Source: a virus. Taken from it: DNA of 56,985 bases. Location of the stretch: positions 1-56,985 of IMG/VR virus record IMGVR_UViG_3300017752_004327; one strand, given 5' to 3'. Positions 20,211 to 42,095 of the stretch are shown here, in pieces (position 1 is the stretch's first letter; each line of letters starts with the position of its first letter). Made by a program: the position numbers and the translations under genes. Below the pieces are notes generated by a model. It ran no database searches, was not told where the DNA came from, and saw only the letters and a program-made list of their open reading frames with translations.

Positions 20211-21191
20211 ATGAATGATTTTACACTTATACCGTTTCAAAACATAGTAAGTTTTGGACAGAAAACTATGTTAGACCAGCCTTTATTCAATGTAAGTTGG
20301 ATACTTGGTCGCTTCTGTAATTACAGTTGTAGTTACTGTTGGCCGTATGCTAGAACGGATAAACCGGATCATCAAGGACTAGAAGTCTACAAAAACACGA
20401 TAGATGAAATCAAACGGCAGGCGAGAGAAAATGGTTTTACTGAATTCCATTTTAGTTTTAGTGGAGGCGAGCCTACTGCGTACAAAAACTTTGGAGAGCT
20501 CGTAGAGCATTACTGTAGTGATACAGCAGCACCTTATCAAAGTATTCATATGACCACTAATCTATCGCCAGGTAGCAAATGGTGGGCTAGATGGATAGAG
20601 TCAACTAGCCAACTACAACGTAGAAGTATCACTGCTAGTTTCCATTCTGAGTTTGCCAAAGAGCAAGAGTTTGGAGACAAGTGCTTACAACTTATAAATG
20701 AAGGAGTATTAGTTACTATCAACCAAGTAATGGTTCCTGACCATTTTGATGAATACTACGAAAGATGTCAACGGTTTTCAGATAGGGGTATTAACGTAAC
20801 ACTCAAACCACAAAGTGATCCAACTGCAAGTTTTATTGTTGATGGATACACTATGAACCAACATTTGAAAATGCAAGAACAATTTCCACAACACATCAAA
20901 GGCGAACAAGTAATGCAGATGTATTTTGAAGACCACAAAGGTAATGACTACGGATTGGATCAAGCAGAAAGAATGAATGCTTTTAACTTCAATAAGTTCA
21001 AAGGATGGAAATGCGCAGCAGGGTATCAAAGTTGCGTTATAAGGGGTGGTGAAGTTAAAAGGGCATATAGTTGTGCGGAAGAACCTTTAGGTACGCTACA
21101 AGACGGTTTTACGCTGTTTAAGACACCATCTAAGTGTATAACTAGTACCTGTGTTAGCTCTGCAGACAGTAAGATACCAAAATCGAAATGA
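20211..21191 (+). CDS. Radical SAM protein, lineage A (CNYxCxYC)
   Basis: About 326 residues. The radical SAM Fe-S motif CNYSCSYC gives cysteines C36, C40 and C43 in this numbering, followed by SFSGGEPTAYK, the SAM-binding GGE motif. A C-terminal cysteine cluster (GWKCAAGYQSC, AYSCAEE, then CITSTC) could bind an auxiliary Fe-S cluster as in SPASM/twitch enzymes. Close in style to the genes at 24756 and 31374. The start is uncertain: ATG at 20202, 20211 or 20268, none with a good Shine-Dalgarno. First gene of the plus-strand part of the island; its stop overlaps the methyltransferase-like start. Substrate unknown. Confidence 0.85.
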   Translation: MNDFTLIPFQNIVSFGQKTMLDQPLFNVSWILGRFCNYSCSYCWPYARTDKPDHQGLEVYKNTIDEIKRQARENGFTEFHFSFSGGEPTAYKNFGELVEHYCSDTAAPYQSIHMTTNLSPGSKWWARWIESTSQLQRRSITASFHSEFAKEQEFGDKCLQLINEGVLVTINQVMVPDHFDEYYERCQRFSDRGINVTLKPQSDPTASFIVDGYTMNQHLKMQEQFPQHIKGEQVMQMYFEDHKGNDYGLDQAERMNAFNFNKFKGWKCAAGYQSCVIRGGEVKRAYSCAEEPLGTLQDGFTLFKTPSKCITSTCVSSADSKIPKSK

Positions 21192-21796
21192 ATATAGATA
21201 TACAAGATATAAAATTTTGGATGGATGCAATTCGCAACAGCGATGATAGAAGCCGTACACTTGATAGTTTTTGGGGCGGCCAACTACAATCCAAAGAATG
21301 GTTAATACAAGCCTTAGAAAAGAAATCACGTATTGCCAATGCAAGGATTGTAATATTTGGCGGATGGAATGGTGTACTTGCAAGTATGCTGTTTAACAGT
21401 GACGTAGGTGTTAAGAATATTACTAGTGTAGACATTGATCCTACGTGTGAAGAAATTGCACGAACTATGAATAAGCGACAAGAAATGGAAGGTAAATTTG
21501 TAGCAGTCACAGAAGATATGTGTAACTTTTATTACCATTCAAAACCTGATATCGTAATTAATACTAGTTGTGAACATATGACAAAAGCAAAGTATAAAAA
21601 GTGGTTGCGAAATGTTCCGAAAGACTGTAAAATAGTACTACAAAGTAATGATTACAAAGAACTAGATGAACACATAAATTGTGTATCATCACTTAGTGAA
21701 TTTAAAAAAACAAGTGGTCTTGATTCTATTATGGAAGAAGGCGAATTACAATTACAGAAGTATAAAAGATTTATGCTAATAGGACACAAACATTAA
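21188..21796 (+). CDS. SAM-dependent methyltransferase-like protein (202 aa)
   Basis: A class I methyltransferase fold is suggested by IVIFGGWNGVLASMLF (glycine-rich loop at about 54-69), the acidic ribose-binding end of strand 2 (ITSVDID) and a strand-4 region INTSCEHM. Overlaps the radical SAM gene before it (ATGA) and the one after it (TAATG), so the three are translated together. A methyl transfer acting with the radical SAM enzymes on a shared substrate is plausible but unproven. Confidence 0.8.
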   Translation: MNIDIQDIKFWMDAIRNSDDRSRTLDSFWGGQLQSKEWLIQALEKKSRIANARIVIFGGWNGVLASMLFNSDVGVKNITSVDIDPTCEEIARTMNKRQEMEGKFVAVTEDMCNFYYHSKPDIVINTSCEHMTKAKYKKWLRNVPKDCKIVLQSNDYKELDEHINCVSSLSEFKKTSGLDSIMEEGELQLQKYKRFMLIGHKH

Positions 21797-22794
21797 TGTA
21801 TGCATTAGATGAAATAAGATCAATACATCTTGAAGTTACATCTAAGTGTCAGGCCAAGTGTCCGATGTGTCCACGTAGAATACAAGGTGGTCCATTATTA
21901 GATACGCTTTACCTAGAAGAGATTGATTTAGAAACCTTTGTTAATTGGTTTCCAAAGGACTTCGTAAGGCAGTTAGATGATTTGAATATGTGTGGAAATT
22001 TAGGCGATCCTATTATTGCAAAAGACACACTGGAAATATATAGATATTTAAGAGAAACAAATCCTTCAATGCATTTACAGATGCACACTAATGGAAGTGC
22101 AAGATCTTTTAGTTGGTGGAAAGAACTTGCAAGTTTAAATGTACGGGTAGTATTTGGTATAGATGGATTAGCGGATACACACGCACTATATAGAGTGAAT
22201 ACTGACTTTCTCAAGATTATACAAAATGCGAAAGCATTTATCTCTGCTGGAGGTGATGCACGTTGGGATATGCTAGTGTTCAAACATAATGAACACCAGG
22301 TACACGATTGTGAAACTATGAGTAAAAACTTAGGATTTACACATTTCTACACAAAGCATACTAGTAGATTCAGAGATGGTAAACTAGATGTTATAGATGA
22401 TAATTACAATGTAACGCACACATTGTATCCAACAACTCACAGTGATAAAAACAGTGAAGGTGTTGAACAAGCAAAACAAGATGTGTTACCAAACATTAGT
22501 TGTAAAGCACAAACAAACAATCAAATATATGTTACTGCTAATGGCGGTGTAAGTGCTTGCTGTTGGTTAGACTTAGAATGGGTTCCGCAGCATAGTTTTT
22601 CTCGTATTGATTATATGAGCAAAGTTAAAGAATATCCTAATCTAAATAATAAAAGTCTAAGCGAGATATTTGCAAGTGGCTTTTTTAGTAAAATATCAAG
22701 TTGTTGGACAACAACAGGTTTGAAAGAATGCACCAAGCAGTGCGGCAACTTTGATAAATTAAATAAACAGTTTGTAGAGGTGAAACAACAGTGA
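21796..22794 (+). CDS. Radical SAM/SPASM protein, lineage B
   Basis: 332 residues. The cluster motif CQAKCPMC puts ligands at C18, C22 and C25. The middle shows HTNGSARSFSWWKEL and FGIDGLADTHALYR; the C-terminal SPASM-type cysteines are in NISCKAQ, SACCWLD and KECTKQCGNF. It is a paralogue of the minus-strand gene at 32338-33342, which shares the IDGLxDTxxLYR, SAGGxARWxMLVFxHNxHQ and C-terminal patterns. SPASM enzymes usually modify peptides or proteins; no precursor peptide is visible here. Confidence 0.87.
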   Translation: MYALDEIRSIHLEVTSKCQAKCPMCPRRIQGGPLLDTLYLEEIDLETFVNWFPKDFVRQLDDLNMCGNLGDPIIAKDTLEIYRYLRETNPSMHLQMHTNGSARSFSWWKELASLNVRVVFGIDGLADTHALYRVNTDFLKIIQNAKAFISAGGDARWDMLVFKHNEHQVHDCETMSKNLGFTHFYTKHTSRFRDGKLDVIDDNYNVTHTLYPTTHSDKNSEGVEQAKQDVLPNISCKAQTNNQIYVTANGGVSACCWLDLEWVPQHSFSRIDYMSKVKEYPNLNNKSLSEIFASGFFSKISSCWTTTGLKECTKQCGNFDKLNKQFVEVKQQ

Positions 22795-24113
22795 CTACTA
22801 GTAAAACTTTTTGCCCGTTACCGTGGATACATATGGCTACGAGACCTAACGGTGATGTTAGAGTCTGTTGTACAGCCAATGCTAGTGGTGCAGGAACAAA
22901 AGATAATAAAACAGCAGGCCTTGTAAAGAAAGATGGTATCGCTATGAACTTGCGAGATCATAGTATTGAAGAAGTATGGAATAGCGAACATATGCGTAAT
23001 ACAAGATTGCAAATGTTAAACGGTGAAGTACCTGTAAGTTGTACCAAATGCTTTGAAGAAGAAAGCAATGGAGTAGTAAGTAAAAGACAATGGGAAACAC
23101 GTGAATGGAAAGGAAAAATTAATATGGAAAACCTTGTTGATAAAACACAAGAAGATGGTAGTTTGGAAGTTGACATTCCGTACTTTGATTTACGTTTAGG
23201 AAATGTATGTAACTTGAAGTGTACTATGTGTTCACCGCACGATAGTTCCAGTTGGATCAAAGACTGGAAACTACAACAACCTGAATATAAAGATCCACTG
23301 CTTGCAAGCGATCAAGATTGGGATCAAAACTTTGATTACACTTGGTACAAGAAAGGAAGTTTCCTTGAAAGTATGATGGAACAGGCCGGTAACATTCAAC
23401 AGTTATACTTTGCAGGCGGAGAGCCATTAATGATTCCAGAGCATTGGAAAATTTTACAAGAATTAATTGCAGAAGGTCACGCAAAAAATATTAAGTTAAG
23501 ATACAACACTAATGGACATCCAGACAGTGCTATGAAGGCTGTAAACTATTGGAACCATTTTAAAGAAGTAGTTGTTAATTTTAGTCTTGATGGTACACAA
23601 TATGTAAACTCATACATTAGATATCCTAGTGATTGGCTTCAAACAATAGCATCATTACGATATATGGTTAATCAAGTAGACAAAAAACATCAGGTTAATA
23701 TTGCGTGTGCAGTACAAGCACTTAACGCACTTGATCTTGTAGATCTTGTAGATTGGAGTATAAAGAGAAATGATGTCAATAACAAAAGAACACATATGGC
23801 TGCGCCTTTCATAAACACGCATTTAGTATACTTCCCAAGTTATATGAATATCAAAGTGCTGCCTATGGAAATTAAAAATCAAGTACGAAGAAAGATTGAA
23901 GATTTTATTATACGCAACAGTAAAGACAAATACTTCAACGATCATCCAATGGGCAAACAACGTTGGGAAGGAATTATTAAGTTTATGTATTCAGAAGATT
24001 GGAGTGATAAACTTCCTGCACTAGTTGAGTATCTAGGCAGTTGTGATAAAACAAGAGGAACTAACTGGAGAGAAACATTTCCAGAGTTAGCGGCAGCAAT
24101 TGATGGACAATAA
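22791..24113 (+). CDS. Twitch-domain radical SAM protein, lineage C (440 aa)
   Basis: The N-terminal twitch-type domain carries C8 (FCPLPWIHMATRPNGDVRVCC), C26/C27 and CTKC at 84-87. The radical SAM motif CNLKCTMC follows at C140, C144, C147, then FAGGEPLMIPEHW. This architecture (auxiliary cluster domain before the radical SAM barrel) is that of twitch-domain radical SAM proteins common in marine phages and bacteria. Start is GTG with a GAGGTG site eight bases before it. It has three paralogues in the window: 25641-26726, 29467-30501 and 33375-34670. Substrate unknown. Confidence 0.87.
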   Translation: MTTSKTFCPLPWIHMATRPNGDVRVCCTANASGAGTKDNKTAGLVKKDGIAMNLRDHSIEEVWNSEHMRNTRLQMLNGEVPVSCTKCFEEESNGVVSKRQWETREWKGKINMENLVDKTQEDGSLEVDIPYFDLRLGNVCNLKCTMCSPHDSSSWIKDWKLQQPEYKDPLLASDQDWDQNFDYTWYKKGSFLESMMEQAGNIQQLYFAGGEPLMIPEHWKILQELIAEGHAKNIKLRYNTNGHPDSAMKAVNYWNHFKEVVVNFSLDGTQYVNSYIRYPSDWLQTIASLRYMVNQVDKKHQVNIACAVQALNALDLVDLVDWSIKRNDVNNKRTHMAAPFINTHLVYFPSYMNIKVLPMEIKNQVRRKIEDFIIRNSKDKYFNDHPMGKQRWEGIIKFMYSEDWSDKLPALVEYLGSCDKTRGTNWRETFPELAAAIDGQ

Positions 24114-24759
24114 TGAAATAGAAAGAGCATTGCGTTGGCAAAGTCTAGTAAACTTAGGCAACCAGGTTAAACTGAAATGGAGTATAGACCATTATGCTGT
24201 TGAGAAACAGTTAGAGCAGTTTAACAACAACTGGTGTCCTTACAATGCAAAGAAAGATACACACAACAATCGTTGGGGATTACCTATTACAAGTCATACA
24301 GGCGATGTTATGGACAACTATCATCTTAATAGTTTTGGCCATATGCAAAAGTATCACGATGTAGAAATGAAGGAAGAAAACTTTAATACTCCTACTGAAG
24401 TGTATCATAAGATTCCTGAACTTAAAAAATTAGTTGATCTATTCAATCCAGATATTGGCCGTGTACACCTAGTACGTGTAGACCAAGGAGGATTCTTTCC
24501 TCCACACAGAGATTTCCACGGTACTAGTCCAGAGTATTTTAGACTGTTAGTTGTATTTGGACGTTGTAGTCCTGAAAACTATGTTCAACTTATTGACGGC
24601 AAACCTTTGTATCCCGAAGCAGGTTACGTATACTTTACTAACTTCCAATTAGATCATAGTGTGTTTAGTTTTAGTGATAATTTGTACAGTCTTATTTTAA
24701 CAGTAAAACTTAATGAGCGTACACAACAACTAATATTAGACAACACGATGGCAGAATGA
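24103..24759 (+). CDS. Aspartyl/asparaginyl hydroxylase-like oxygenase (218 aa)
   Basis: Read from the ATG at 24103 (MDNNEIERALRW), which overlaps the radical SAM gene. The beta-helix core has GGFFPPHRDFHG with an HxD iron pair, a distal LDHSVFSF histidine, and strands RLLVVFG and YSLILTV. This is the aspartyl beta-hydroxylase/cupin pattern; the usual RxxHG after the distal His is absent, so it is a divergent member. Embedded among radical SAM genes with ATGA overlaps on both sides. Confidence 0.75.
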   Translation: MDNNEIERALRWQSLVNLGNQVKLKWSIDHYAVEKQLEQFNNNWCPYNAKKDTHNNRWGLPITSHTGDVMDNYHLNSFGHMQKYHDVEMKEENFNTPTEVYHKIPELKKLVDLFNPDIGRVHLVRVDQGGFFPPHRDFHGTSPEYFRLLVVFGRCSPENYVQLIDGKPLYPEAGYVYFTNFQLDHSVFSFSDNLYSLILTVKLNERTQQLILDNTMAE

Positions 24760-25661
24760 AGTTAACATATCAACAAAGTTCAAAAGAAAATTGGTTTTTA
24801 GTTAGTTGGACACTGTCTAACAAGTGTAACTATCGCTGCTCCTATTGTCCTGAACATTTACATAGTGGTAGCACAGGACAGCCTCGTTGGGAAACTGTTG
24901 AAAGATTTGTCAAAAATTTTACAGTACCCGGTAAAGACATATGCTATAGATTAAGCGGTGGCGAACCTACATACTGGAAACACTTTATGGATCTTGCTAA
25001 ACTTGTAAAAGCACAAGGGCATACATTTAGTTTTTTAACAAACGGCAGTAGAACTCCTGAATACTATAAAGAGATATCACAACACACTGATGGTTTTATT
25101 ATTTCTTATCATCCGGAGTATGCAGAAGTAACACATATCAAGGAAGTAATTAATGCAAGCGAGTGTCCTGTGTTTATTAATTTGATGCTGGCTCCTGAAA
25201 ATTTTAATGAGATGTTTGACATTGCAGAAGAACTATATCAATGTAGTGATAACGTAACTGTGTGGCCTAAAATAATTTTAGACAAGTCAAATGTAGATGC
25301 TATTACAAACAAACCTGCAAACTACACACAAGAACAACTAGACACTATTGGCAATTGGCCGTACTTTAGAAACTTACCAGATGTTAATTTACACAGAGGT
25401 GAACTAATGTTAGATGAGGCTCCAGTAACAGCAAACAATTTAATTGCCAACAATCAAAATACATTCTATGGTTGGAAGTGTTGGGCAGGACTACATATGA
25501 TTAATGTTGATATGTGGGGCAACATATATAGAGCTGACTGTAAAGAAGGCGGAGCATTAGGTAATATTGAACGCTATAAGTTGCCTACTGAAACTGTGCA
25601 GTGTGGTAAAGCAGTTTGTGCTTGTCTAAGCGATATCTATCTAAGAAAAGAGACTACTTAA
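24756..25661 (+). CDS. Radical SAM protein, lineage A (301 aa)
   Basis: CNYRCSYC places ligands at C24, C28 and C31; YRLSGGEPTYWKH carries the GGE motif; the C-terminus has GWKCWAGLHMINVDMWGNIY and cysteine pairs CGKAVCAC. Paralogous to the genes at 20211 and 31374, sharing the SYHPE/SFHSE/CHHQR position and the GWKC/GWTC tail. It closes a five-gene plus-strand overlap chain and ends convergently with the next radical SAM gene, overlapping it by 21 bases. Confidence 0.86.
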   Translation: MKLTYQQSSKENWFLVSWTLSNKCNYRCSYCPEHLHSGSTGQPRWETVERFVKNFTVPGKDICYRLSGGEPTYWKHFMDLAKLVKAQGHTFSFLTNGSRTPEYYKEISQHTDGFIISYHPEYAEVTHIKEVINASECPVFINLMLAPENFNEMFDIAEELYQCSDNVTVWPKIILDKSNVDAITNKPANYTQEQLDTIGNWPYFRNLPDVNLHRGELMLDEAPVTANNLIANNQNTFYGWKCWAGLHMINVDMWGNIYRADCKEGGALGNIERYKLPTETVQCGKAVCACLSDIYLRKETT

Positions 25662-26726
25662 TTCAGGACATACATCAAGTATGTCTGTACCACGCAACTC
25701 ATCTACCTTACGTGTAAAGTCGACAAACTGTTCTAGTTGTATAGGACTGTCTTTGTGTCTGTATCCTGTTCCGTCAAGTATATGTTCAGGCAGTATTTGA
25801 GGATTTAGATAAGCCGGTGTTGTAACTACATTGTTTACATACAATTCGTAGTGCGGTTTTTTAATGCTGTAAAACCAATCTACAATATCTTTAACGTGGC
25901 ACACATTGTACGTCATAATAGTACCTGCAAAAATAAGTCTGTCCATTTTGTCTAGTTGCTGTAAGTTATCTACTAGTTGTTCAAACGGAAAGTTGTCGCC
26001 GCCTCTTATATATTCATACAGTTTGCCGGTGCCTTCAATACTAATGTGCCATTTAGTTTCTTTGAACTGATGTGCTAGTTCATCAAATTCTAAATCTACA
26101 ACAGTACCATTAGTGCTTATATCAAGTGTAATATTTTTTGCAAGATCAAGTTCAATTAGTTTTTGCATAATCTGTTTGTTAGCAGGTTCCATATATGGTT
26201 CACCGCCTTTAATATTAACATACTGTAAGTTCTTAAAATATTGAGGATATTCAAATAGTCTATCTACTATGTCAGGACTTAGATTTCTGTAACCAAAGTC
26301 AGGTTCGTGTATGGGTCGTTGTACGCCCATTTTGTCTAGTTTTAAATCTTCTTTGATCCAAGCAGTACTGTTTACACCACTACACATTCTGCACTTGAGA
26401 TTACACAGATTACTCATATTAAATTCTAAGAAATATATGTCATTTCGTAAGTTGCTCTCTGGTTTTAGCATAGGATTTAGAACTTGTTCAAAAAACTTTC
26501 TTCTGCTATGTCCGTTGGTGCTTTCTTTCAGTGTACATTGTGAACAGTTACTAGGAAACTGTCCTGATGCAATTGTACGTTGTGTATGTATCAATCCAGG
26601 ATTTCGTAAAATAGTAGGCAAGTCTTCCTTGAGTAAGTTACCGTGACGTCCTGTATAAACGCAGTCCGGTACAACATCTCCGTTGAATCTAATACTAAGA
26701 GCGTGCCAAGGTGCATAACACTTCAT
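25641..26726 (-). CDS. Twitch-domain radical SAM protein, lineage C (361 aa)
   Basis: N-terminal auxiliary-cluster cysteines C3, C22 and the CSQC pair at 61-64, then radical SAM motif CNLKCRMC (C108, C112, C115) and NIKGGEPYMEPANKQ. The barrel also shows DISTNGTVVD and ISIEGTGKLYEYIRGG. Start codon ATG at 26726. It overlaps the beta-propeller gene upstream by 32 bases. Confidence 0.86.
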   Translation of the reverse strand: MKCYAPWHALSIRFNGDVVPDCVYTGRHGNLLKEDLPTILRNPGLIHTQRTIASGQFPSNCSQCTLKESTNGHSRRKFFEQVLNPMLKPESNLRNDIYFLEFNMSNLCNLKCRMCSGVNSTAWIKEDLKLDKMGVQRPIHEPDFGYRNLSPDIVDRLFEYPQYFKNLQYVNIKGGEPYMEPANKQIMQKLIELDLAKNITLDISTNGTVVDLEFDELAHQFKETKWHISIEGTGKLYEYIRGGDNFPFEQLVDNLQQLDKMDRLIFAGTIMTYNVCHVKDIVDWFYSIKKPHYELYVNNVVTTPAYLNPQILPEHILDGTGYRHKDSPIQLEQFVDFTRKVDELRGTDILDVCPELSSLFS

Positions 26727-27840
26727 ATGTCAAGTCCTCCTTAATATGATACAACTGATGCTGCGAAGAAATAGTGTCGTAACCTATTACACAAAGTTTG
26801 TCATTGTGTATAATTGGTCTTCCAAATAACGTGTGTTCAAAAAATATACTTTGTATTTCATCTCCATCTTTGTTTATTCTAAATATAGGACAACTAGGAG
26901 TTCCGGCTGGCATAAAATACGCATACCCTTTGTATTCAATACCACTGCGATATCTATACTTGCCGCCGTGTGTAATGCCGATATCAAACTGTTTGCTTTC
27001 TTTTGTAACAGTATTAAATACCAGTCCCCAATTACTTTCCCCGTGTTCTGTTCCATAAGGTAGTGCAACTATATTATCGCCTACAAGCACACCACCGTTA
27101 TATTTTTTAGCAAAGTCTACTCCGTTCATATTATGATATGTAGCAGTGTTTGTTTCTGTATCAAACTCTACAATAGTGTTAAGTCCTTTAGTTTCTCCAA
27201 ATGGTAAACTGTATAGTGTTTTATCTTTAACAACAATATCGCTGTATTTTCTAGTAATATTAGGATCAACTTCTAGTTCGTAACTTGCAAACTTTTCTCC
27301 ATCAAAACTTAATAAACTTGTGTATCCTGGTTCGTCACCTCTTGGCATACTCCAGTATCGCCCATTGCAATATACTGTACCCATATGCAGTTTTTTACCT
27401 TGATAGGGTAACGGGTGTATAGATAGTTTTCCGTCTTTGATATAGATAGCATTGTTTGTGCCTTCGTACCCTAATGGAAAACTAAAAGCAGTATTCCATT
27501 CATAGTTTGTTGCTACACTGTAGTATTGTCCTTTGCCTGTAAACGGTAGTTTATGTTTTACAATTGCGCCAGGTTTTATTTCAGTAACAATGTTAAGGTC
27601 ATCATATATTCCGTAGGGTATAAGCCAAGCACTATCTCCTAAGACTGCAACAGCATTTGTTTTACTAGTACTAGGTGGTAAATCTAAATCAACACACTTT
27701 CCATCTATCCATACATCGCTGTAACTTTTACACAAGTTAGTAGCAAACGGAGGACTTAATAACTTGCCGTTATAATTAAAAAGTAATAGATGTTTAATCT
27801 TAGTTTCTTTATAATGATCTTGAAATTCTTTATATGCCAT
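26695..27840 (-). CDS. Beta-propeller-like repeat protein (381 aa)
   Basis: About seven or eight repeats of the form hydrophobic-x-hydrophobic-P-[YFR]-G-[ED], for example WLIPYGIYDDLNIV, YWSMPRGDEPGYTS, LYSLPFGETKGLNTIV and IVALPYGTEHGES, followed by a strand. This spacing (45-55 residues) is that of a beta-propeller blade. No enzyme motif is visible; such folds usually bind a ligand or protein. It is a tandem paralogue of the 27830-29053 protein. No signal peptide, so it acts in the cytoplasm or as a virion part. A substrate or scaffold for the adjacent radical SAM enzymes is one idea, untested. Confidence 0.7.
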   Translation of the reverse strand: MAYKEFQDHYKETKIKHLLLFNYNGKLLSPPFATNLCKSYSDVWIDGKCVDLDLPPSTSKTNAVAVLGDSAWLIPYGIYDDLNIVTEIKPGAIVKHKLPFTGKGQYYSVATNYEWNTAFSFPLGYEGTNNAIYIKDGKLSIHPLPYQGKKLHMGTVYCNGRYWSMPRGDEPGYTSLLSFDGEKFASYELEVDPNITRKYSDIVVKDKTLYSLPFGETKGLNTIVEFDTETNTATYHNMNGVDFAKKYNGGVLVGDNIVALPYGTEHGESNWGLVFNTVTKESKQFDIGITHGGKYRYRSGIEYKGYAYFMPAGTPSCPIFRINKDGDEIQSIFFEHTLFGRPIIHNDKLCVIGYDTISSQHQLYHIKEDLTYEVLCTLARS

Positions 27841-29053: not shown

Positions 29054-29480
29054 ATAACTCTCCAAATGCTGATTGCAAGTCTGCTTTTAACTTTGTGTAT
29101 ATAGTTTTGGTATCGTATATACCAACGTTGTCCCAATCAACCATACGCATAGTATTACCGTCAACTATAATATTACTTAGTACCCAATCACCGTGTGCAT
29201 ACGGTAGTGTGCTGTTGATTTGATCTACACAAAATTTACACACCTCATCACGGAACTGCGGAGTATGTTTGAATGTACTTGCAGGCTGTCCTAAATATCT
29301 TGTGAAGTCGATATAGTTTTCTCCAACGTACTTGACATAGCCTGGTTGTACCTTGTTTAGCATTTCAGCGTGTTGTTGCATCCACACAGAATCTTTGTCA
29401 TACCAAAACTTTCTAATCGTGTCGCTATCTTTTAAAAATACAGCACGCTTCTTTTGTTTATTTTCTTTAATTAAGTCCAT
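29034..29480 (-). CDS. Kinase-fold (APH-like) C-lobe protein (148 aa)
   Basis: The motif HGDWVLSNIIVDGNTMRMVDWDN matches the catalytic loop and metal-binding Asp of aminoglycoside/choline kinase-like (APH) proteins: HGDxxxxN then DW. The protein is only 148 residues, so the usual N-lobe with the ATP-binding Lys is missing or very reduced. ATG at 29480 is chosen over a TTG at 29492. It may phosphorylate a small molecule, or be a degenerate binding protein. It sits between a radical SAM gene and the propeller pair, overlapping both. Confidence 0.68.
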   Translation of the reverse strand: MDLIKENKQKKRAVFLKDSDTIRKFWYDKDSVWMQQHAEMLNKVQPGYVKYVGENYIDFTRYLGQPASTFKHTPQFRDEVCKFCVDQINSTLPYAHGDWVLSNIIVDGNTMRMVDWDNVGIYDTKTIYTKLKADLQSAFGELFDPASI

Positions 29481-31361: not shown

Positions 31362-31373
31362 TAAATACTCCGT

Positions 31374-34670: not shown

Positions 34671-35439
34671 ATATATTGTCGATTATGATCCTGCACAAAT
34701 CACTAGTAGATTTATAGATAGCACATCGTGGGACATAATCGAACTTCCTTGGACTATTGACGTTGTACAGTTACAAGACTGGTACAGCATAGTAGATAGA
34801 GAATACGAAGATTTATATTTTAGTTGGCGCAAGTCGCAATATCTAAAAGACAAGTATCACTTAGAAAACATCGACAATGCGTTTGACGGAGATACAGGAC
34901 AAGCAGGTAGAGGTGTTTATGATCAAGGGTATCATATTGTAGATTATATTAAGAACACACATCTTGCAGAAATACTTGTAATGGAAATAAGTTGGTTTTG
35001 CGAAAAAGATATACCTGGAGTACCTAGTTGGGCTGCACGACAGGATCTTTATCCTGAATGCTGGACTGGCGAAAACAAAAGAATACAAGAAAAGTTTGAT
35101 TTTGGGTTTGTAAAGTTTATGAAAAATACACTGGGTGAAGAAATACTAAAAGACCTTAGCATTAGGAAACATCAGCCTACTGCTTTACTAGGTAAACATA
35201 TTGACGGACCTAATGTGCAAAGACTACACATACCAATTAACACAGATGACGATGCTAAATTTTTATACGGCGAAGACCTGGACAGAGAGTATAACTTGTT
35301 ACCTGGAAAGGCATATATTATTAATGCAGCAGTACCACACGGAACAGTAAATAAGAGTAAAAACAACAGAGCGCACTTACAGTCAAAACCTGTAAATGAA
35401 ACTGTTGTTAAAATAGCAGGAATGCAATGGAACAGTTAG
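34663..35439 (+). CDS. Asp/Asn hydroxylase-like oxygenase of the LQxWY family (258 aa)
   Basis: ATG at 34663 is chosen because GGAGG lies nine bases upstream; an ATG at 34657 is too close to it. The N-terminal segment IDVVQLQDWYSIVDREYEDLYF recurs in three other proteins here. The beta-helix core has GKHIDGPNVQRLHIPINT (HxD iron pair), PGKAYIINAAVPHGTVNKS (distal His) and a final NRAHL Arg, the aspartyl beta-hydroxylase order. Probably an Fe(II)/2-oxoglutarate hydroxylase. Substrate unknown. Confidence 0.78.
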   Translation: MDRYIVDYDPAQITSRFIDSTSWDIIELPWTIDVVQLQDWYSIVDREYEDLYFSWRKSQYLKDKYHLENIDNAFDGDTGQAGRGVYDQGYHIVDYIKNTHLAEILVMEISWFCEKDIPGVPSWAARQDLYPECWTGENKRIQEKFDFGFVKFMKNTLGEEILKDLSIRKHQPTALLGKHIDGPNVQRLHIPINTDDDAKFLYGEDLDREYNLLPGKAYIINAAVPHGTVNKSKNNRAHLQSKPVNETVVKIAGMQWNS

Positions 35440-36122
35440 AAAAATATTGGCAAGAGCATAACAAAGAATACAGTTATGAATATCCAGAACAGTTTGATCC
35501 TAAATGGATTGTAATGGAAAGTGGTTGGCCATTCCTTAGATTAAGTGCTTTGGACAATCAGCCTTGGAAAGAAATGCACAAGGAAGCAGAAGCACTTGCA
35601 GACAAGTTTCACGTGCATAGAGACGACTATGGTAACGGTTGGCGCAGTCTAACATTACACGGACTAGACGAAGATACCCAAACATTAAACAGTTACGGTG
35701 ATAGAGCAAATACTATAAAACAACTAGACTGGACCTGGGTAGCAGACGAATGTCCTATTACTAAAAAGTTTTTAACAGATGTATGGCCTGCGGAGTTTTT
35801 AAATCGTGTAAGATTTATGTATCTTGAACCGGGCGGGTATATACTTCCACATCAAGATAGAGCAGATGAAGAAAAGCGTTTAACTGTTTGCAATATAAGT
35901 TTGAATAATCCGGAAGGTTGTGAATTTGTAATGAAGGATCAAGGTCGTGTACCATTTGATGACAATGGCAGTGCATTCTTAATGGATATTAGCAATGTAC
36001 ACAGCGTATGGAATAGAAGCGATAAGCCACGCATACATATGATTATTCACTACGAACTAGGTAGACGCATTAGAGATTTCTTCTATGTGCTTAGACAAAG
36101 TTATTATACTAATAGAGGTTAA
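35427..36122 (+). CDS. Aspartyl/asparaginyl beta-hydroxylase-like protein (231 aa)
   Basis: The core RFMYLEPGGYILPHQDR carries the HxD pair; LTVCNISLNNPEGCEFVMKDQG, GSAFLMDISNVHSVWNRSDKPRIHMIIH supply the distal His and the Arg that would bind 2-oxoglutarate. Of the six hydroxylase-like proteins in the island this matches the classical Asp/Asn beta-hydroxylase pattern best. It overlaps both neighbours. Expected to hydroxylate Asp/Asn side chains or a small molecule. Confidence 0.84.
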   Translation: MEQLEKYWQEHNKEYSYEYPEQFDPKWIVMESGWPFLRLSALDNQPWKEMHKEAEALADKFHVHRDDYGNGWRSLTLHGLDEDTQTLNSYGDRANTIKQLDWTWVADECPITKKFLTDVWPAEFLNRVRFMYLEPGGYILPHQDRADEEKRLTVCNISLNNPEGCEFVMKDQGRVPFDDNGSAFLMDISNVHSVWNRSDKPRIHMIIHYELGRRIRDFFYVLRQSYYTNRG

Positions 36123-37598
36123 ATGAAAGATTGGAATAGCATAACTGTTGATAGATATTGGGAACAAATTAAAGTTTCCAATGATATTGCTATAGGTATA
36201 CTTGATACACGTAGAGACATAGACAGCGACATTGTAAGTAAGCGTTCATTTGATATGACTTACTTTTATATTAACCGAATGGTCAAGATGGGTTTGAGCA
36301 AGTATGTAGGAAGTGCAATTACTGTACACGAAATACTAGAACGTGCTGTAAAAGAAAATAAAAAGTATTGTATGATTGCTGCACAAGGATGTTTGCTGTA
36401 CAGAGGACCTAGTCTAGTTACACAAAGTTTAGCCTACGCACAAAAGAATCCAGACTTCTTTGTTGTTGGACATATTATGGACAAAAAGAAACAGCACTAT
36501 CTTACTATGGGTGCGTATCCCGGCTTGCATAGACAGTATCTATTTGTTAATATTGCAAAGTGGCAAGAATTAGGTAGTCCAGTGTTTGATGAAATGGGCG
36601 TATTCCAAGATCGTAAACCTATACTACAAAACTATGAATTGAGCGAAAACACAATGAACAGTAACTATACACCTGCGTGGGTACGTAGAGCAGGTGGCGC
36701 AACAGAGTATCCAGTAACCAGTGATGGTAGTAACTGGATTGACATTGCATTACGTAAAGATATTGTTATTGACAACTTAGATAATGATATGCGTGATTGC
36801 AAAGTGTATTTGTACCCATACATTGATACAAAACAGTTAGAAGGAGTATGGTATGAAAAAGATGTGGAAAAAATTGACAAGTTATCTAACCAATCTCAAC
36901 GTGCTTGGATTAGAAAACTCCAATACCAAGAAGACATCGAAAAAGACAGAGTATATGCATTCAACACGGAGACACTTTCATCTGAAGGAGTAAGAACAGG
37001 CGGCAAACACATTGATCATCTGTTTACTGCTGCTGCTGGATTCAAACCTTTAGCAATACTAAATGCTAATGGCTTTCACGAAGGCACTACTGTGCATTAC
37101 TTTGATTGGTGTGAATCAAGTTTAAACTACAAGAAGCATTTATTAGAAACGTGGGACGGTTATGATTTGGATAAATGGCTCTTAGAACACGATTTAACTT
37201 ATAACTTCAGTAGCACTTATCGTGCAAACTATAAAGAGTTTTGGGATCAAGAAGTAGCAGAACACGGTGGTAGTTTAGCATTTCAAAGATTGTGGGCAAG
37301 GTATAGAGAACTAAGACACGAGTTCTATGTAATAGATATTGTAAATGAAAGTGATAAATTGTTTAATGAAATAAACAAGTACCACGGAACCAAAGTACTA
37401 TGGACTACAAATATTTGGTCAAGCGAAATGCTACATTGGAATGTAGAGCCCGAAGTATTAGAAACAAAATGGAAACAGTTTGAAAAACAAATTCCAAATG
37501 ACCTTGTATTATACGGACACGACTATGTTGCAGTAGATATGAATTCAAGAGTTAGGGACGGAGTGCAACTAACACACCCGAGATATAATGACAATTAA
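36123..37598 (+). CDS. Unknown large island protein (491 aa)
   Basis: No family recognised. The first 150 residues look alpha/beta with a segment KKYCMIAAQGCLLYRGPS that could be part of a nucleotide-sugar-binding (GT-A-like) fold; the second half is aromatic-rich (TVHYFDWCESSLNYKKHLLETWDG and LWTTNIWSSEMLHW) and looks like a separate domain. A two-domain enzyme is likely. It starts one base after a hydroxylase-like gene and overlaps hemC by 11 bases, so it is translated with them. Confidence 0.65.
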   Translation: MKDWNSITVDRYWEQIKVSNDIAIGILDTRRDIDSDIVSKRSFDMTYFYINRMVKMGLSKYVGSAITVHEILERAVKENKKYCMIAAQGCLLYRGPSLVTQSLAYAQKNPDFFVVGHIMDKKKQHYLTMGAYPGLHRQYLFVNIAKWQELGSPVFDEMGVFQDRKPILQNYELSENTMNSNYTPAWVRRAGGATEYPVTSDGSNWIDIALRKDIVIDNLDNDMRDCKVYLYPYIDTKQLEGVWYEKDVEKIDKLSNQSQRAWIRKLQYQEDIEKDRVYAFNTETLSSEGVRTGGKHIDHLFTAAAGFKPLAILNANGFHEGTTVHYFDWCESSLNYKKHLLETWDGYDLDKWLLEHDLTYNFSSTYRANYKEFWDQEVAEHGGSLAFQRLWARYRELRHEFYVIDIVNESDKLFNEINKYHGTKVLWTTNIWSSEMLHWNVEPEVLETKWKQFEKQIPNDLVLYGHDYVAVDMNSRVRDGVQLTHPRYNDN

Positions 37599-38334
37599 AA
37601 TAGGCGTAAGGGGAAGTAAACTAGCAATTGCATACGCTGATCGTGTATGTGCAGAACTTAATTGTAGTACTGAGATAATTGCTATTAAAACAGAAGGCGA
37701 TCTAAACCCAGATACTCCAATACACGAAATTGGCGGCAAGGGTGTATTCTGTAGTGCTATTGAAAAAGCATTGTTGGAAGGGTCTATTGATGTTGCTGTA
37801 CACAGTTTAAAAGATATCCCAGGAGATATAGAAACAGAGGGATTGGAAATATCTGCTGTACTAGAACGTAACAGACCTTATGATGTCCTTATAGGTAAAG
37901 TGTTTGATGGATTTGTATTAGGTACAAGCAGTCCAAGGCGCAAGGCACAACTAGAAGAATTGTATGCTGATCAGCACATACAAATAAAACCTATAAGAGG
38001 TAATATAGATACAAGACTTGCAAAACTAGATGCAGGCGAATATGATGCTATTGTCCTTGCAGAAGCAGGATTAGATGCATTAGATATTAAAAGAGACTAT
38101 GAACGCTTATCTATTACACCAGCAGTTGGACAAGGAATCATTGCACTACAAACAAGAACAGGCAGTGATGCAAGTAATATTGTTAAAGAGATAAATCACG
38201 ATCTAACATATAGACAAGCAATGTTAGAAAGAGCATTACTAAAAGGTATAGGCGGTGATTGCACAACTAAGGTTGCAGCATTTGCAAGTGAAGACAATCC
38301 TATTAAACTAGAGGCTGTGTATTACAATGCTTAA
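37588..38334 (+). CDS. hemC: Hydroxymethylbilane synthase HemC
   Basis: 248 residues aligning from GVRGSKLAIAYA to a DCTTKVAAF end. It polymerises four porphobilinogens into hydroxymethylbilane, the precursor of all tetrapyrroles. Visible: VHSLKDIP with D76 (the catalytic Asp), TSSPRRKAQL, RGNIDTRLAKLDAGEYDAIVLAEAGL, and the dipyrromethane-cofactor cysteine C225 in GGDC. It stops about 25 residues after that cysteine, whereas normal HemC is about 300-315 residues, so most of the third domain is trimmed. Overlaps the genes on both sides. Confidence 0.92.
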   Translation: MTIKIGVRGSKLAIAYADRVCAELNCSTEIIAIKTEGDLNPDTPIHEIGGKGVFCSAIEKALLEGSIDVAVHSLKDIPGDIETEGLEISAVLERNRPYDVLIGKVFDGFVLGTSSPRRKAQLEELYADQHIQIKPIRGNIDTRLAKLDAGEYDAIVLAEAGLDALDIKRDYERLSITPAVGQGIIALQTRTGSDASNIVKEINHDLTYRQAMLERALLKGIGGDCTTKVAAFASEDNPIKLEAVYYNA

Positions 38335-38977
38335 ACGCTATTTAGAAAAACACGATCCTATTGATTTAGGTTGGAGATACAAGCGTTGGTTTCCAGTCGA
38401 TGTTGAAAAAATGCAATCGTGGTATAAAGACTTAGAAGATAGTTATAGTGATTGGAAGTTTATTGTTGGGGACAATCAGCATATATGGCAGGAACCTATT
38501 GTTGACCCTGCAGGTATAACAGGACATCGCTTAATGGACGACACATCATATTATACATTGTGTTGGAACAGTGATGAAGCAGGACCAAAACCATTTGAAC
38601 AAGGACAAGCGAAACCAGAGTACAGAGATAATGATGATGACAATCTAAATCCACGCAAATGTTTTAGTGGGTATGCATTAGATATTGTACAGAATTTACC
38701 TGTGCGTAGTAAAAAATGGTTAGTTACAATACATACACCTGGGACTAAATTAATTACTCATCAAGACTCGCCTGATAAAATTAGAGTACACATTCCAATA
38801 TACACAAACAAGGATAGTAATTGGATTATAGATGGTGAAGAAATACATATGGAGCCAGGTTGGGCATACCTAGTAAATACTACATTACCACACAGTGTGG
38901 AAAATAAAGGTACTACAGAAAGAATACACTTATACGGCAAAGTATGGACTAACGATGTTAAGGAACTAGATATATGA
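38327..38977 (+). CDS. Asp/Asn hydroxylase-like oxygenase of the LQxWY family (216 aa)
   Basis: The N-terminal motif appears as FPVDVEKMQSWYKDLEDSYSDW. The core has LVTIHTPGTKLITHQDSPDKIRVHIPIYT (HxD) and GWAYLVNTTLPHSVENKGTTERIHLYG (distal His and Arg). It lies between hemC and the SDR-like gene with overlaps of 8 and 4 bases. A 2-oxoglutarate oxygenase; substrate unknown. Confidence 0.8.
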   Translation: MLKRYLEKHDPIDLGWRYKRWFPVDVEKMQSWYKDLEDSYSDWKFIVGDNQHIWQEPIVDPAGITGHRLMDDTSYYTLCWNSDEAGPKPFEQGQAKPEYRDNDDDNLNPRKCFSGYALDIVQNLPVRSKKWLVTIHTPGTKLITHQDSPDKIRVHIPIYTNKDSNWIIDGEEIHMEPGWAYLVNTTLPHSVENKGTTERIHLYGKVWTNDVKELDI

Positions 38978-39585
38978 AGGTAGTAATTATCGGCGGCAAA
39001 GAAAGTGGTATAGCACCAGGCATTCATAATATGAATAATTGGTTACACGAATATTTTGCACAATATGATCTAGTACAATTGAGCAGAGTTACAGGTTACG
39101 ATCTTGACACCAAGTACGATGAAATAGTTGAGATAGCAAGAACTGCTGATATCTTTATTAACAGTGCGTGTGTAAAAGATTACCAAATAAAACTATTAGA
39201 TGATGTGTACGGACACGTTCCGTTCCTAATATGTTTAGGAAGTATTGCAGGTGATATGTATCCTGCTCCTCAAAACTATCCCAATCATCCTAACTATCCA
39301 GAAGTAAAACATAAATTAAAAGAGCGTTGTAAGTGGATACAGTTAGAGAAACAAGATGCTACTACTAACTTATTGCATCTAAATGTTACAGAAACTGAAG
39401 ATCATAAGTATAACGTAAAAGGGTTACAACAGCCACAGTTGTTTAAAATATTAGATTTTTGGTTTGATAATCCTTACATAGCAAATATGGACTTAAAGTT
39501 TTGGACAGAAAGTTATGTTAAAGAATATAAACAAAAGAAAATAAAAGGAATTATAGATTATTTTAATAATCAGAGGAACAAATGA
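38974..39585 (+). CDS. Rossmann-fold/SDR-like protein (203 aa)
   Basis: An N-terminal MKVVIIGGKESGIAPGI has a Gly-rich dinucleotide-binding turn; ADIFINSACVKDYQI and PFLICLGSIAGDMYP follow in the order expected of short-chain dehydrogenases. The usual YxxxK pair is not obvious, so activity is uncertain. It sits between a hydroxylase-like gene and hemE with 4-base overlaps. Confidence 0.7.
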   Translation: MKVVIIGGKESGIAPGIHNMNNWLHEYFAQYDLVQLSRVTGYDLDTKYDEIVEIARTADIFINSACVKDYQIKLLDDVYGHVPFLICLGSIAGDMYPAPQNYPNHPNYPEVKHKLKERCKWIQLEKQDATTNLLHLNVTETEDHKYNVKGLQQPQLFKILDFWFDNPYIANMDLKFWTESYVKEYKQKKIKGIIDYFNNQRNK

Positions 39586-40517
39586 AAACTATACTACAGA
39601 GAACTATTAAAGATAGAGAAACAAATTTATACCCTGTTTGGTTGATGCGTCAAGCAGGAAGGTATATGCCTGAGTATATGCAAATGAAACAAAACAGTAA
39701 TGGATTTTTAGATATGGCACTTACTCCACACAAGGCCAAAGAAATTACTTTGCAACCTATTAATGCATTTGATATGGATGCAGCAATAATTTTTTCTGAT
39801 ATACTTATTATTCCTTATGCACTTGGACAAGAGTTAGATTATACTCCTTCACCAGTACTTGGACCATTCAACGAAAAAATGTTTGAAACTGATATGTGGA
39901 CGTTTGTGAAAAAATGTCAACCTGTGTACGATGCAATTAAACAGACTAGAGTAAAACTAAATGAAAGTAAAAGTTTAATCGGATTTGCAGGAGCACCTTA
40001 TACACTTTGCAAATATATGACAAAGACTAAAAATCGAAATGTTGTAGATAAACTAGTTCCATACATTGTGGAACACCTATCAAAACAAATTGATGCAGGT
40101 TGTGATACAATACAGATATTTGATAGTTGGGCAGGAGATTTGTCAGATCAAGAACTAGATACTTTATGTTATAAACCAACAGCAAAGATAGTAAATGCTA
40201 TTAGACGTCAATATCCTCAAGTAGGCATCATTGCTTTTCCAAGGTTAATAGGCAAAAACATAAATGAGTTCGCTGACATTGTAAAACCTGATTGTATTAA
40301 TTTAAGTGATGATATTCCTGTTGAAGACGTTACTACTGATGTTGTGTTACAAGGTGGTATTCCTTGGCAAGGATTATTAGTCAATGAAGACATTACTCCT
40401 ATGCTGCAAAAAATGAAAGACAAATCATATATTGTTAATCTAGCACACGGAGTTAATAAAGAAACTCCGGTAGTAAATGTTAAGAACTTTGTACAAACTG
40501 TGAAAGATTTTAGATGA
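39582..40517 (+). CDS. hemE: Uroporphyrinogen decarboxylase HemE
   Basis: 311 residues of the URO-D TIM barrel, which removes four carboxyl groups from uroporphyrinogen to give coproporphyrinogen. PVWLMRQAGRYMPEY at 18-32, FSDILIIPYALGQ with the catalytic-type D73, GFAGAPYTLCKYM, and a C-terminal LAHGVNKETPV are all present. It is 30-40 residues shorter than usual but keeps these active-site motifs. It lies two genes after hemC; no hemD is seen, so the host enzyme, or non-enzymatic ring closure to the type I isomer, must supply its substrate. Confidence 0.93.
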   Translation: MKTILQRTIKDRETNLYPVWLMRQAGRYMPEYMQMKQNSNGFLDMALTPHKAKEITLQPINAFDMDAAIIFSDILIIPYALGQELDYTPSPVLGPFNEKMFETDMWTFVKKCQPVYDAIKQTRVKLNESKSLIGFAGAPYTLCKYMTKTKNRNVVDKLVPYIVEHLSKQIDAGCDTIQIFDSWAGDLSDQELDTLCYKPTAKIVNAIRRQYPQVGIIAFPRLIGKNINEFADIVKPDCINLSDDIPVEDVTTDVVLQGGIPWQGLLVNEDITPMLQKMKDKSYIVNLAHGVNKETPVVNVKNFVQTVKDFR

Positions 40518-41104
40518 TAAGAGAAACAAAAAAACTTAATACAACTGTTGATATTAGTGAACTGCAAAATTACTATGCACAGTTAGAAACAGAATATCAA
40601 CATTTGTGTTGGCGATACCAAGACAACGTTAGCCAAGGTGTAGGCGGACATATATTTGATGATGCATATGGTTGGGCATTGCAAAGTAATTTAGAAGATC
40701 TAACTGTACCTTGCCCTCCATATAATATAACAGAAGAGCGTAAAATGCATCCATACAGAGATACTGAAATGATGTTTGGTGTTGTAAGTAGATTACAAGA
40801 AGCATTTCCTTTTGCACACCAATTCAGTGTTGCTGTACACCCGCCAGGGACATTTATTAATTTTCATAGTGATAGCGATAACTATCTTAAAGTGCATATA
40901 CCTATCTTAACTAACAGTAAAGCATACTTCCAATTTCAGCCTATGCGTAGGTTCGTATTGCCAGCAGACGGAAGTATGTTTCTTGTAAATACTAATATTA
41001 AACACGGTACACACAACGAAGGTGATACTGATAGAATACATCTATACTTCAAAATACCTGTAGACAAGGAAAAAGAAGTGTTAGATAAGGAAGGTAACAT
41101 ATGA
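40514..41104 (+). CDS. Asp/Asn hydroxylase-like oxygenase of the LQxWY family (196 aa)
   Basis: The N-terminus TTVDISELQNYYAQLETEYQHLCW is the family segment. The core has FSVAVHPPGTFINFHSDSDNYLKVHIPILT (HxD) and GSMFLVNTNIKHGTHNEGDTDRIHLYFKI (distal His and Arg). It is the shortest of the four family members. 4-base overlaps with hemE before and the membrane protein after. Confidence 0.8.
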   Translation: MIRETKKLNTTVDISELQNYYAQLETEYQHLCWRYQDNVSQGVGGHIFDDAYGWALQSNLEDLTVPCPPYNITEERKMHPYRDTEMMFGVVSRLQEAFPFAHQFSVAVHPPGTFINFHSDSDNYLKVHIPILTNSKAYFQFQPMRRFVLPADGSMFLVNTNIKHGTHNEGDTDRIHLYFKIPVDKEKEVLDKEGNI

Positions 41105-41391
41105 TATTTTGGATAGGATTTATGGTAATGGTTTTAAACGAAGGGTTTGTAATTATGAGACACGTACACCCTTGGTTCGCTAACAAAAGAGATCATCTTA
41201 TCGCAAAGTATGGTACGAATTGGAAGAAGTTTCACGGTGCATTAGATTATGTTTGGATAGTTGGTATAACATTAGGTATAGCAGTAGACATTGCTAACTG
41301 GAAGTTCTATGCTACAGTATTAGCAACCTTTTGGACTGTTGTGGGCGTTTGCGTATATCTGCCATTACTAATTAAAAGGTTACGAAAATGA
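41101..41391 (+). CDS. Small membrane protein (96 aa)
   Basis: Three likely membrane segments: residues 1-18 (MIFWIGFMVMVLNEGFVI), about 49-66 (VWIVGITLGIAVDIA) and 70-90 (FYATVLATFWTVVGVCVYLPLL), with basic loops. No family recognised. It overlaps hydroxylase-like genes on both sides, so it may anchor their product or the pathway to the membrane; this is inference. Confidence 0.7.
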   Translation: MIFWIGFMVMVLNEGFVIMRHVHPWFANKRDHLIAKYGTNWKKFHGALDYVWIVGITLGIAVDIANWKFYATVLATFWTVVGVCVYLPLLIKRLRK

Positions 41392-42095
41392 GAGTAATAC
41401 AAAACTATGATCCTAAAGATATAACAATGGACTTGTTATACAATGACGATACGTGGGGTGCTATTGAATTAAACGTTGATTTAGATATCGATCAATTACA
41501 AAGTTATTATTTTGATATCAAAAATAAACACAGCCACCAGTATTTTAACTTCCAAGATTTTCCTGAAAGATTATCTATAGAAATTAGTAAACAGTATATG
41601 GAACTAGGATACTGCGGATATTACTGCGGACCTATAGCAGGATATACACTTGCGTGGCCTGTAGAACGTTATGAACCTATACCACCTTCTAGTCAAGCAA
41701 ATGTTGATATGTTTCCAGAAACACTTGATCCAGAATTTTATGAAAAGTGTAATGTGTTGCCTAGGTTTAGATTTGGTTATATGAATACACTATTAGATAT
41801 GTTAGGTGAAGATAGTTTTAAACAGTGTATTATAACAGAACACGGTCCTGAGGCTACAATTCAAACACACAAAGATTCAAATGCTAAAAAGTTACATATA
41901 CCTTTGGCAACTAATGAACAAGCCTTGTTTACATTTGGTGAAAACAGAGAAGTAAAATTTAATATGCGTGTGGGCAAGATATACATTCTGAATACAAGTG
42001 CATTTCACGGAACAGAAAACTACGGCGAATCAACTAGAGCGCATTTTATTACAAGAGTAGATGAAACTCGTATACAAGATGTTATAGCACTATAA
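41388..42095 (+). CDS. Asp/Asn hydroxylase-like oxygenase of the LQxWY family (235 aa)
   Basis: N-terminal LNVDLDIDQLQSYYFDIKNKHSHQYFNF is the shared segment. The core shows HGPEATIQTHKDSNAKKLHIPLAT (HxD) and GKIYILNTSAFHGTENYGESTRAHF (distal His and Arg). It is the last plus-strand gene of the island and overlaps the convergent GNAT-like gene by 6 bases. Confidence 0.8.
   Translation: MRVIQNYDPKDITMDLLYNDDTWGAIELNVDLDIDQLQSYYFDIKNKHSHQYFNFQDFPERLSIEISKQYMELGYCGYYCGPIAGYTLAWPVERYEPIPPSSQANVDMFPETLDPEFYEKCNVLPRFRFGYMNTLLDMLGEDSFKQCIITEHGPEATIQTHKDSNAKKLHIPLATNEQALFTFGENREVKFNMRVGKIYILNTSAFHGTENYGESTRAHFITRVDETRIQDVIAL

Follow-up and report, generated by a model that had tools for sequence, protein, structure and literature searches.

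An ordered cluster of radical SAM and hydroxylase-like genes recurring in dozens of viral contigs

Introduction

Radical S-adenosylmethionine (radical SAM) genes have been noted before in marine phages, in passing. In pelagimyophages, radical SAM cassettes and glycosyltransferases are described in the host recognition cluster (HRC), and one pelagimyophage type has a porphobilinogen deaminase and a coproporphyrinogen oxidase (accessible text of PMC7029224, 2020). TARA_ERS488813_N000010, a T4-like environmental viral genome of ∼183 kb, carries 12 radical SAM genes (accessible text of PMC5332604, 2017). Aquatic phages carry the tetrapyrrole genes AlaS, HemO and PcyX (PMC11480375, 2024), and the cyanophages Syn10, Syn9, S-RIM44 and others have flavin halogenases. 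Here we describe the linear IMG/VR virus record IMGVR_UViG_3300017752_004327 (56,985 bases; hereafter the window), which contains an island of radical SAM and hydroxylase-like genes that belongs to an ordered, purifying-selected and apparently phage-restricted cluster.

The island appears to share with the HRC, as presented in the accessible text of PMC7029224, a hypervariable location in a T4-like marine phage, beside tail or receptor genes, and the combination of radical SAM with glycan genes. However, that text mentions radical SAM cassettes briefly, and describes neither HemE nor the ordered cluster of radical SAM genes, hydroxylases and the protein U491. Of the island contigs retrieved, G027 (184,930 bp, T4-like) is the longest, and its gp23-type capsid protein is 71% identical to that of Sinorhizobium phage Phosso; the capsid is thus closest to jumbo T4-like phages, and membership of the pelagimyophages is not shown. 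By description only, G027, with 185 kb and at least eight radical SAM genes, can be likened to TARA_ERS488813_N000010, but the genes of the latter are reported, in the accessible part of its source, as Fe-S metabolism genes, with no cluster, partners or order. The halogenase found in relatives of the island belongs to PF04820, as do those of the cyanophages, and both occur in T4-like marine phages; the identity is nevertheless ∼30%, and there is no halogenase in the window. The island partners U491 and HYD2 were found in no cultured phage record. Like the phages of PMC11480375, those studied here carry tetrapyrrole synthesis genes, AlaS being present in seven contigs with hem genes, but the enzymes are HemC and HemE, with HemF in relatives. 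The main text of PMC11480375 contains no hemC, hemD, porphobilinogen deaminase or hydroxymethylbilane, and in a text search hemE is indistinguishable from "heme". In the open-access literature found, part of it accessible only in portions, neither the ordered radical SAM/hydroxylase/halogenase cluster nor a phage HemE is described, which is not proof of absence.

Results and Discussion

Gene content and conservation of the cluster

Positions 20211-42095 of the window encode nine radical SAM proteins (RS1 to RS9) and six hydroxylase-like proteins with an HxD...H motif (HX0 and HYD1 to HYD5), with the motifs intact. Both counts agree with a first-pass annotation made from the letters of the window: all nine radical SAM open reading frames (ORFs) match PF04055, RS9 falling just below the cut-off (28.1 vs 29.5 bits), and five of the hydroxylase-like proteins match PF05118, one of them just below its cut-off, with HX0 assigned by motif. 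The annotation had ended the island at 42095. The unit in fact reaches 43281, and the GNAT-fold protein U182 and the AMP-binding fragment AMPb belong to it. The overlaps that had been noticed are confirmed: 24 of the 26 gene junctions overlap, by 1-50 bases. Two of the several genes first listed as unknowns are HemC and HemE; because these had been overlooked, not every gene of the interval can be counted as a modification enzyme.

A viral scan with U491 yielded 49 other IMG/VR contigs (63-96% identity) with the island genes in the same order. The common order is HX0-RS4; RS5-PROP1-PROP2-APH-RS6 on the opposite strand; HYD2-U491-HYD3 with further hydroxylases; and U182-AMPb-Mtd_N. Dereplication of the 49 contigs by U491 sequence left 32 distinct loci. 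HYD2 is present in all 32, and U491, APH and RS6 in 31 each; APH is adjacent to RS6 in 31/32 and HYD2 to U491 in 30/32. The near-universal core therefore consists of RS6, the small kinase APH, HYD2 and U491. In G001 and G002 the cluster recurs at ∼44-79% identity, with HemC elsewhere in it. When the window was compared with the sister contig G007 (IMGVR 3300018420_004001; locus L010), the ratio of nonsynonymous to synonymous substitution (dN/dS) was 0.02-0.22 for nearly every island gene; U203 was saturated, and HemC is absent from the sister. Such low ratios, together with a gene order shared by 49 other contigs, show that the cluster is more than a chance assembly and that it is under strong purifying selection. 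The genes thus recur together rather than singly and scattered, and the relatives that were compared retain the catalytic motifs. Because order is fixed and motifs are intact, the earlier proposal of a composite modification pathway, which need not make a ribosomally synthesized and post-translationally modified peptide (RiPP), is supported.

The propellers, HYD3 to HYD5, the halogenase and AMPb behave as an extension block. Of the distinct loci, 19 extend as far as the Mtd_N gene; the block is complete in 14 of these and wholly missing from five. The halogenase site of most relatives, between HYD5 and U182, is occupied by a protein of 365-505 amino acids (aa) that belongs to the tryptophan halogenases (PF04820; the L010 copy gives 2.6e-74). 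In the window this gene is missing and HYD5 directly abuts U182; the window phage has lost the flavin halogenase and carries an edited version of the proposed pathway.

Island genomes have 5-10 radical SAM genes each, and hem-bearing genomes without the island have none, among the genomes tested. Four of the nine proteins of the window pass the NCBIfam twitch model NF033640 (cut-off 170 bits): RS3 (22791-24113, + strand; 412.9 bits, N-terminal twitch), RS5 (25641-26726, - strand; 234.2 bits), the core protein RS6 (29467-30501, -; 215.6 bits) and RS9 (33375-34670, +; 210.9 bits). The remaining five score 26-49 bits with this model. A C-terminal SPASM domain is present in RS2 (21796-22794, +; PF04055 and PF13186 over cut-off) and RS8 (32338-33342, -; PF04055 8e-10, PF13186 1.5e-6), and RS1 (20211-21191, +; PF04055 4e-14, dN/dS 0.06), RS4 (24756-25661, +; PF04055 8e-13) and RS7 (31374-32357, +; PF04055 2e-11) have neither a twitch-model match nor SPASM. 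The GGE-type motifs reported for all nine hold as GGEP in seven; RS2 has GNLGDP and RS8 GSYGDP instead. The cut-off of the prokaryotic viperin model NF038283 (180 bits) was not reached by any, the best score being the 60.8 bits of RS7, for which this is the top NCBIfam model. CxxxCxxC is kept in every distinct relative of all nine families. Against 50,697 phage records, RS6 gave a single weak partial match.

The hydroxylase-like genes had been described as interleaved with the radical SAM genes, but their spacing is uneven, with one at 24.1 kb and five at 34.6-42.1 kb. HX0 (24100-24759, +) has no Pfam match and is recognized by its motif only; H136, D138 and H186 are near-invariant, HxD...H is kept in 15/15 sequences compared, and its dN/dS of 0.019 makes it the most conserved island gene. 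The others are of the Asp/Asn beta-hydroxylase type. HYD2 (35427-36122, +; 1.7e-14), HYD3 (38327-38977, +; 4e-12), HYD4 (40514-41104, +; 1.3e-7) and HYD5 (41388-42095, +; 6e-8) pass the gathering score of PF05118 (Asp_Arg_Hydrox), and HYD1 (34621-35439, +) gives E 0.001 (19.5 vs 22.6 bits). The HxD...H triad and Arg of this family are near-invariant across relatives, HYD1 included. The core protein HYD2 has no relative in the 50,697 phage records, and its only solved relative is L-proline cis-4-hydroxylase (4p7w), to which the likeness is weak (E 0.0024). Two more 2-oxoglutarate-Fe(II) oxygenases (phrog_81) lie outside the island, at 44869-45438 (-) and 47759-48379 (-), one of them adjoining the Mtd_N gene.

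The two other core proteins are U491 (36123-37598, +) and APH (29034-29492, -). For U491, searches of Pfam, NCBIfam and PHROG gave no relative and PDB sequences no credible one; it has no match in the 50,697 phage records, and a scan of 84,980 bacterial and archaeal genomes with two peptide patterns only did not find it. In its AlphaFold2 model (mean predicted local distance difference test, pLDDT, 79) the N-terminal part appears weakly similar to GT-A glycosyltransferases and another part, towards the C-terminus, to Rossmann-type SAM methyltransferases (Foldseek PDB best E 2e-3). Over its full length, the protein is structurally related to unnamed proteins from uncultured Caudovirales (Foldseek BFVD best E 2e-31). 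APH is kinase-like; the APH profile match is weak (E 0.007), HGDxxxxN is kept in 24/31 sequences and D-[WF]-D (DWD in the window) in 31/31.

A proposed pathway and its alternatives

That the island genes form one unit is well supported. The enzymes likely form one pathway, and the virion as its target is uncertain. Our preferred reading, held tentatively and at somewhat less than even confidence, is that the island encodes a single, phage-specific system for a multi-step chemical modification, located in the variable part of a T4-like marine phage genome that serves host recognition, and that its product would be placed on the phage's own recognition apparatus. Twitch and SPASM radical SAM enzymes would make difficult C-H-derived bonds on a carrier molecule, the Fe(II)/2-oxoglutarate hydroxylases would add hydroxyl groups and, in most relatives, the flavin halogenase would add a halogen. 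Activating and transferring groups might fall to the kinase APH, to MT and to the pair formed by AMPb and the GNAT-fold U182, and U491 might transfer the finished product, which would decorate a receptor-binding or tail protein, or a glycan on it; we infer the order of these steps. HemC and HemE would raise host tetrapyrrole flux, relying on host HemB and HemD. As targets we would rank a virion protein or glycan first, a small molecule second and a host glycan third. A bolder form of the proposal, in which a virus-specific pathway not found in cells employs five to ten radical SAM enzymes along with hydroxylases and, in most cases, a halogenase to put a new kind of chemical group on host-recognition structures, is rather unlikely. 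Should the cluster prove to be one pathway, viruses would possess an extended biosynthetic route that is their own, and the targets of phage halogenases and oxygenases would become testable with defined partners (U491, HYD2, RS6 and APH).

The preferred reading is favored by the position of the island beside the receptor-binding-type Mtd_N gene and, in relatives, beside glycan and tail-fibre-like genes. It is favored also by the gene order, motifs and selection described above, by the joint presence or absence of the extension block, by the number of radical SAM genes in island genomes compared with none in the hem-only genomes tested, by the orientation of AMPb and U182 relative to Mtd_N, by the GNAT fold of U182 and the GT-A-like part of U491, and by the radical SAM cassettes and glycosyltransferases of the pelagimyophage HRC. 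Several points weigh against it. To argue from a neighbouring receptor-binding-type gene is guilt by association, no substrate has been identified for the island enzymes, and the glycosyltransferase likeness of U491 is weak, with no DxD motif recognized by eye. The five loci without the extension block are related sequences and may reflect one or few events, so that the co-occurrence of the block is statistically non-independent. Moreover, a small-molecule substrate is pointed to, because the only solved relative of HYD2 acts on a free amino acid. This last point bears on the possibility that the cluster makes a diffusible small molecule, such as a hydroxylated or halogenated amino-acid derivative, acting on the infected host, on its metabolism or on competitors. 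The halogenase of relatives, the hydroxylases, the adenylation fragment, the GNAT protein, the methyltransferase and the kinase do resemble natural-product tailoring enzymes, and the cyanophage flavin halogenases, at ∼30% identity, offer a parallel. However, no carrier protein, non-ribosomal peptide synthetase or polyketide synthase module, or exporter was recognized; the Pfam matches of 30 window proteins include no scaffold-building enzyme or carrier protein, although carrier proteins were not the object of a search of their own. The universal core consists of a radical SAM enzyme, a kinase, a hydroxylase and U491 rather than of scaffold-building enzymes, and the island adjoins host-recognition genes. 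We consider a diffusible product unlikely, if a serious contender. The pathway might instead alter lipopolysaccharide or a surface glycan of the infected host and so give superinfection exclusion; a host glycan was among the targets named in the first-pass annotation. This would fit the glycan genes that adjoin the island in relatives and the GT-A-like part of U491, and such a role has been proposed for pelagimyophage glycosyltransferases (accessible text of PMC7029224). No glycan flippase or ligase was recognized in the window, and this explanation is quite unlikely. To our knowledge, O-antigens are not typically modified by radical SAM enzymes or flavin halogenases, which also argues against it.

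The remaining explanations are much less probable. Twitch and SPASM radical SAM enzymes often act on peptides, and many enzymes are packed together here, as would suit RiPP-type maturation of a ribosomal peptide. However, ORFs of at least 90 aa fill 99.86% of 20211-43281 and the sole free small ORF is one of 37 aa, which leaves no space in which a precursor peptide could be encoded; small-ORF clustering across relatives gave no family common to them, and the island proteins stay below the cut-offs of all NCBIfam models for RiPP radical SAM enzymes. The absence of a precursor, already remarked on in the first-pass annotation, is thus borne out, and a RiPP is highly improbable. An assembly of unrelated auxiliary genes in a hypervariable region, with no common pathway, is very unlikely: HemC, HemE, TM96, U293 and RS7 do come and go, and in the sister locus a phosphatase-like ORF replaces HemC, but fixed order and pairing in dozens of contigs, gain or loss of a block and strong purifying selection speak against it. 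Least probable of all is that the radical SAM enzymes act on a tetrapyrrole from HemC and HemE to give a novel haem- or d1-like cofactor. HemC and HemE lie within the operon here, HemC lies between MT and RS3 in G001, and the SPASM enzymes NirJ, AhbC and AhbD, which act on tetrapyrroles, give weak matches. These matches nevertheless score 16-29 bits where the cut-offs are 500-650, radical SAM genes are absent from hem-bearing phages that lack the island, and the idea is weakened because HemC and HemE are missing from almost all island loci (HemE from all 16 large island contigs).

A separate small ORF of 78-83 aa was seen between RS4 and RS5 in nine island loci (L086, L087, L109 and L122-L124 among them); it is not in the window.

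HemC and HemE

HemC (37588-38334, +) is a hydroxymethylbilane synthase by TIGR00212 (241.7 bits vs the equivalog cut-off of 164) and PF01379 (5e-61). D76 and C225, the catalytic Asp and the dipyrromethane-cofactor Cys, are conserved in 18 distinct viral copies. Its C-terminal domain 3 is incomplete, stopping at model position 259/293, and the viral copies are short (245-280 aa). HemE (39582-40517, +) matches PF01208 (8.6e-67; 226 vs 23.9 bits), and all its solved-structure matches are uroporphyrinogen decarboxylases. The best NCBIfam model is TIGR01464 (1e-74), yet the score, 251.5 bits, is under the equivalog cut-off of 302.95; the same function as uroporphyrinogen decarboxylase is for that reason probable rather than certified.

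Viral scans found HemE in 15 contigs and HemC in 20. In the HemE tree there are three separate viral clades (support 1.0), that of the window having 15 tips. HemE, HemF and HemC follow one another in this order within ∼4 kb in the marine viral contigs G014 and G022-G026 (loci L056 and L060), and AlaS is over its cut-off in the seven hem records mentioned above, in several of them at a place away from HemE-HemF-HemC. HemB and HemD were found in 0/27 records tested. With HemF and AlaS of related contigs, HemC and HemE mean that marine phages jointly cover several tetrapyrrole steps, beyond the first. The window HemC is 66-76% identical to that of phages whose HemE, if present, is 29-32% identical to the window HemE; since HemC is close and HemE distant in the same phages, the two genes have different histories. 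We conclude that HemC and HemE are separately acquired passengers from a wider marine-phage tetrapyrrole pool that also includes AlaS and HemF.

Host contamination as the source of these genes was rejected. Both are in overlapping operons with phage genes, and the window HemE is inside the 15-member viral clade, with 60-85% identity among viruses vs at best 45% in 385 genomes from the class to which an alphaproteobacterial metagenome-assembled genome belongs. The hemC and hemE matches in INPHARED do not exceed 38% identity and, going by annotation only, resemble host DNA; in several phage-collection records, among them OR846837.1, CAKLQF020000018.1 and AFYI01000006.1, hemE, hemC or dnaK looks like host chromosome, and the apparent hem genes of such records are probably contamination. 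U203 as a replacement of HemD was not supported, as U203 is retained where HemC is missing and PF02602 finds nothing.

In the sister contig the place of HemC (L010 8289-8755) is held by a short ORF with a phosphatase-like CTHGESR (CxxxxxR) motif, and proteins resembling it (HCMKGESRS) occur in 13 island loci. In another hem genome (L049; G008 38001-58000), HemE is beside proteins that by eye are curlin-repeat-like, CsgG-like and CHASE2-like, the last being related to the truncated end gene of the window (56254-56964).

Other island genes and genome context

The methyltransferase, two propellers and kinase-fold fragment of the first-pass annotation are retained as likenesses, the profile support for each being weak. 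MT (21188-21796, +) is SAM-methyltransferase-like (Methyltransf_25, E 0.002) and was found in 12/32 distinct loci, many of which stop short of its position. PROP2 (27830-29065, -) is beta-propeller-like, with repeated P-[YR]-G-E-type motifs that are invariant in the alignment and a Kelch match below cut-off (1e-5); PROP1 (26695-27840, -), also propeller-like, has no Pfam match and is 20% identical to PROP2 in alignment. U293 (30498-31379, -), of no assigned function, is found only in close relatives of the window (7/32 distinct loci). U203 (38974-39585, +) is Rossmann/SDR-like (short-chain dehydrogenase/reductase) by eye, with no Pfam or NCBIfam match, and TM96 (41101-41391, +) is by eye a small membrane protein (phrog_31495, 5e-32, function unknown).

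At the right end, U182 (42090-42638, -) is predicted to be a GNAT-fold acyltransferase-like protein; the fold is clear in the AlphaFold2 model (pLDDT 87; best Foldseek GNAT match E 7e-6, prob 1.0). AMPb (42610-43281, -) is a short fragment of the adenylate-forming (ANL) type (PF00501, 3.5e-18) that carries the motifs TSGST, YGMTE and TGDL and that relatives keep at a length of ∼213-225 aa (dN/dS 0.17). In the window, both run in the direction of the Mtd_N gene and follow immediately downstream of it. This gene (MtdN, 43325-44791, -; Mtd_N PF18454, 1.5e-6, over cut-off) encodes a receptor-binding-type structural protein at the island edge and is variable, with 27-51% identity in distant relatives.

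A gp23-type capsid gene is present in the island genomes G027, G028, G036 and G039 and in the hem genomes G005 and G008, and in 0/14 cellular controls; no gp23-type major capsid was found in the 57-kb window. In G027 the island is flanked by genes that by eye are glycosyltransferase-like, SGNH hydrolase-like and UDP-glucose dehydrogenase-like, and then by tail-fibre-like genes; the equivalent UDP-glucose dehydrogenases of G001 were confirmed by Pfam. When VrlC and gp14, the borders expected of a pelagimyophage HRC, were looked for in the window, the 2239-aa protein encoded at 2071-8790 matched tail-fibre repeats only, and gp14 was not recognized. Not one copy of the T4 late promoter word TATAAATA occurs in the whole window, vs 7.6 expected from shuffles.

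Just left of the island is a thymidylate synthase gene (18717-19379, -). A full-length DnaK is encoded at 48424-50310 (-; phrog_22485, 4.6e-281), ∼60-68% identical to bacterial DnaK and ∼92% to that of the sister L010, and four tRNA genes (Gln, Thr, Glu, Trp) lie at 51564-53317 (-). The cultured Vibrio jumbo phage K566 (L230, 156844-173500) has three clustered radical SAM genes with PagP nearby, and this locus is possibly a smaller, cultivable analogue.

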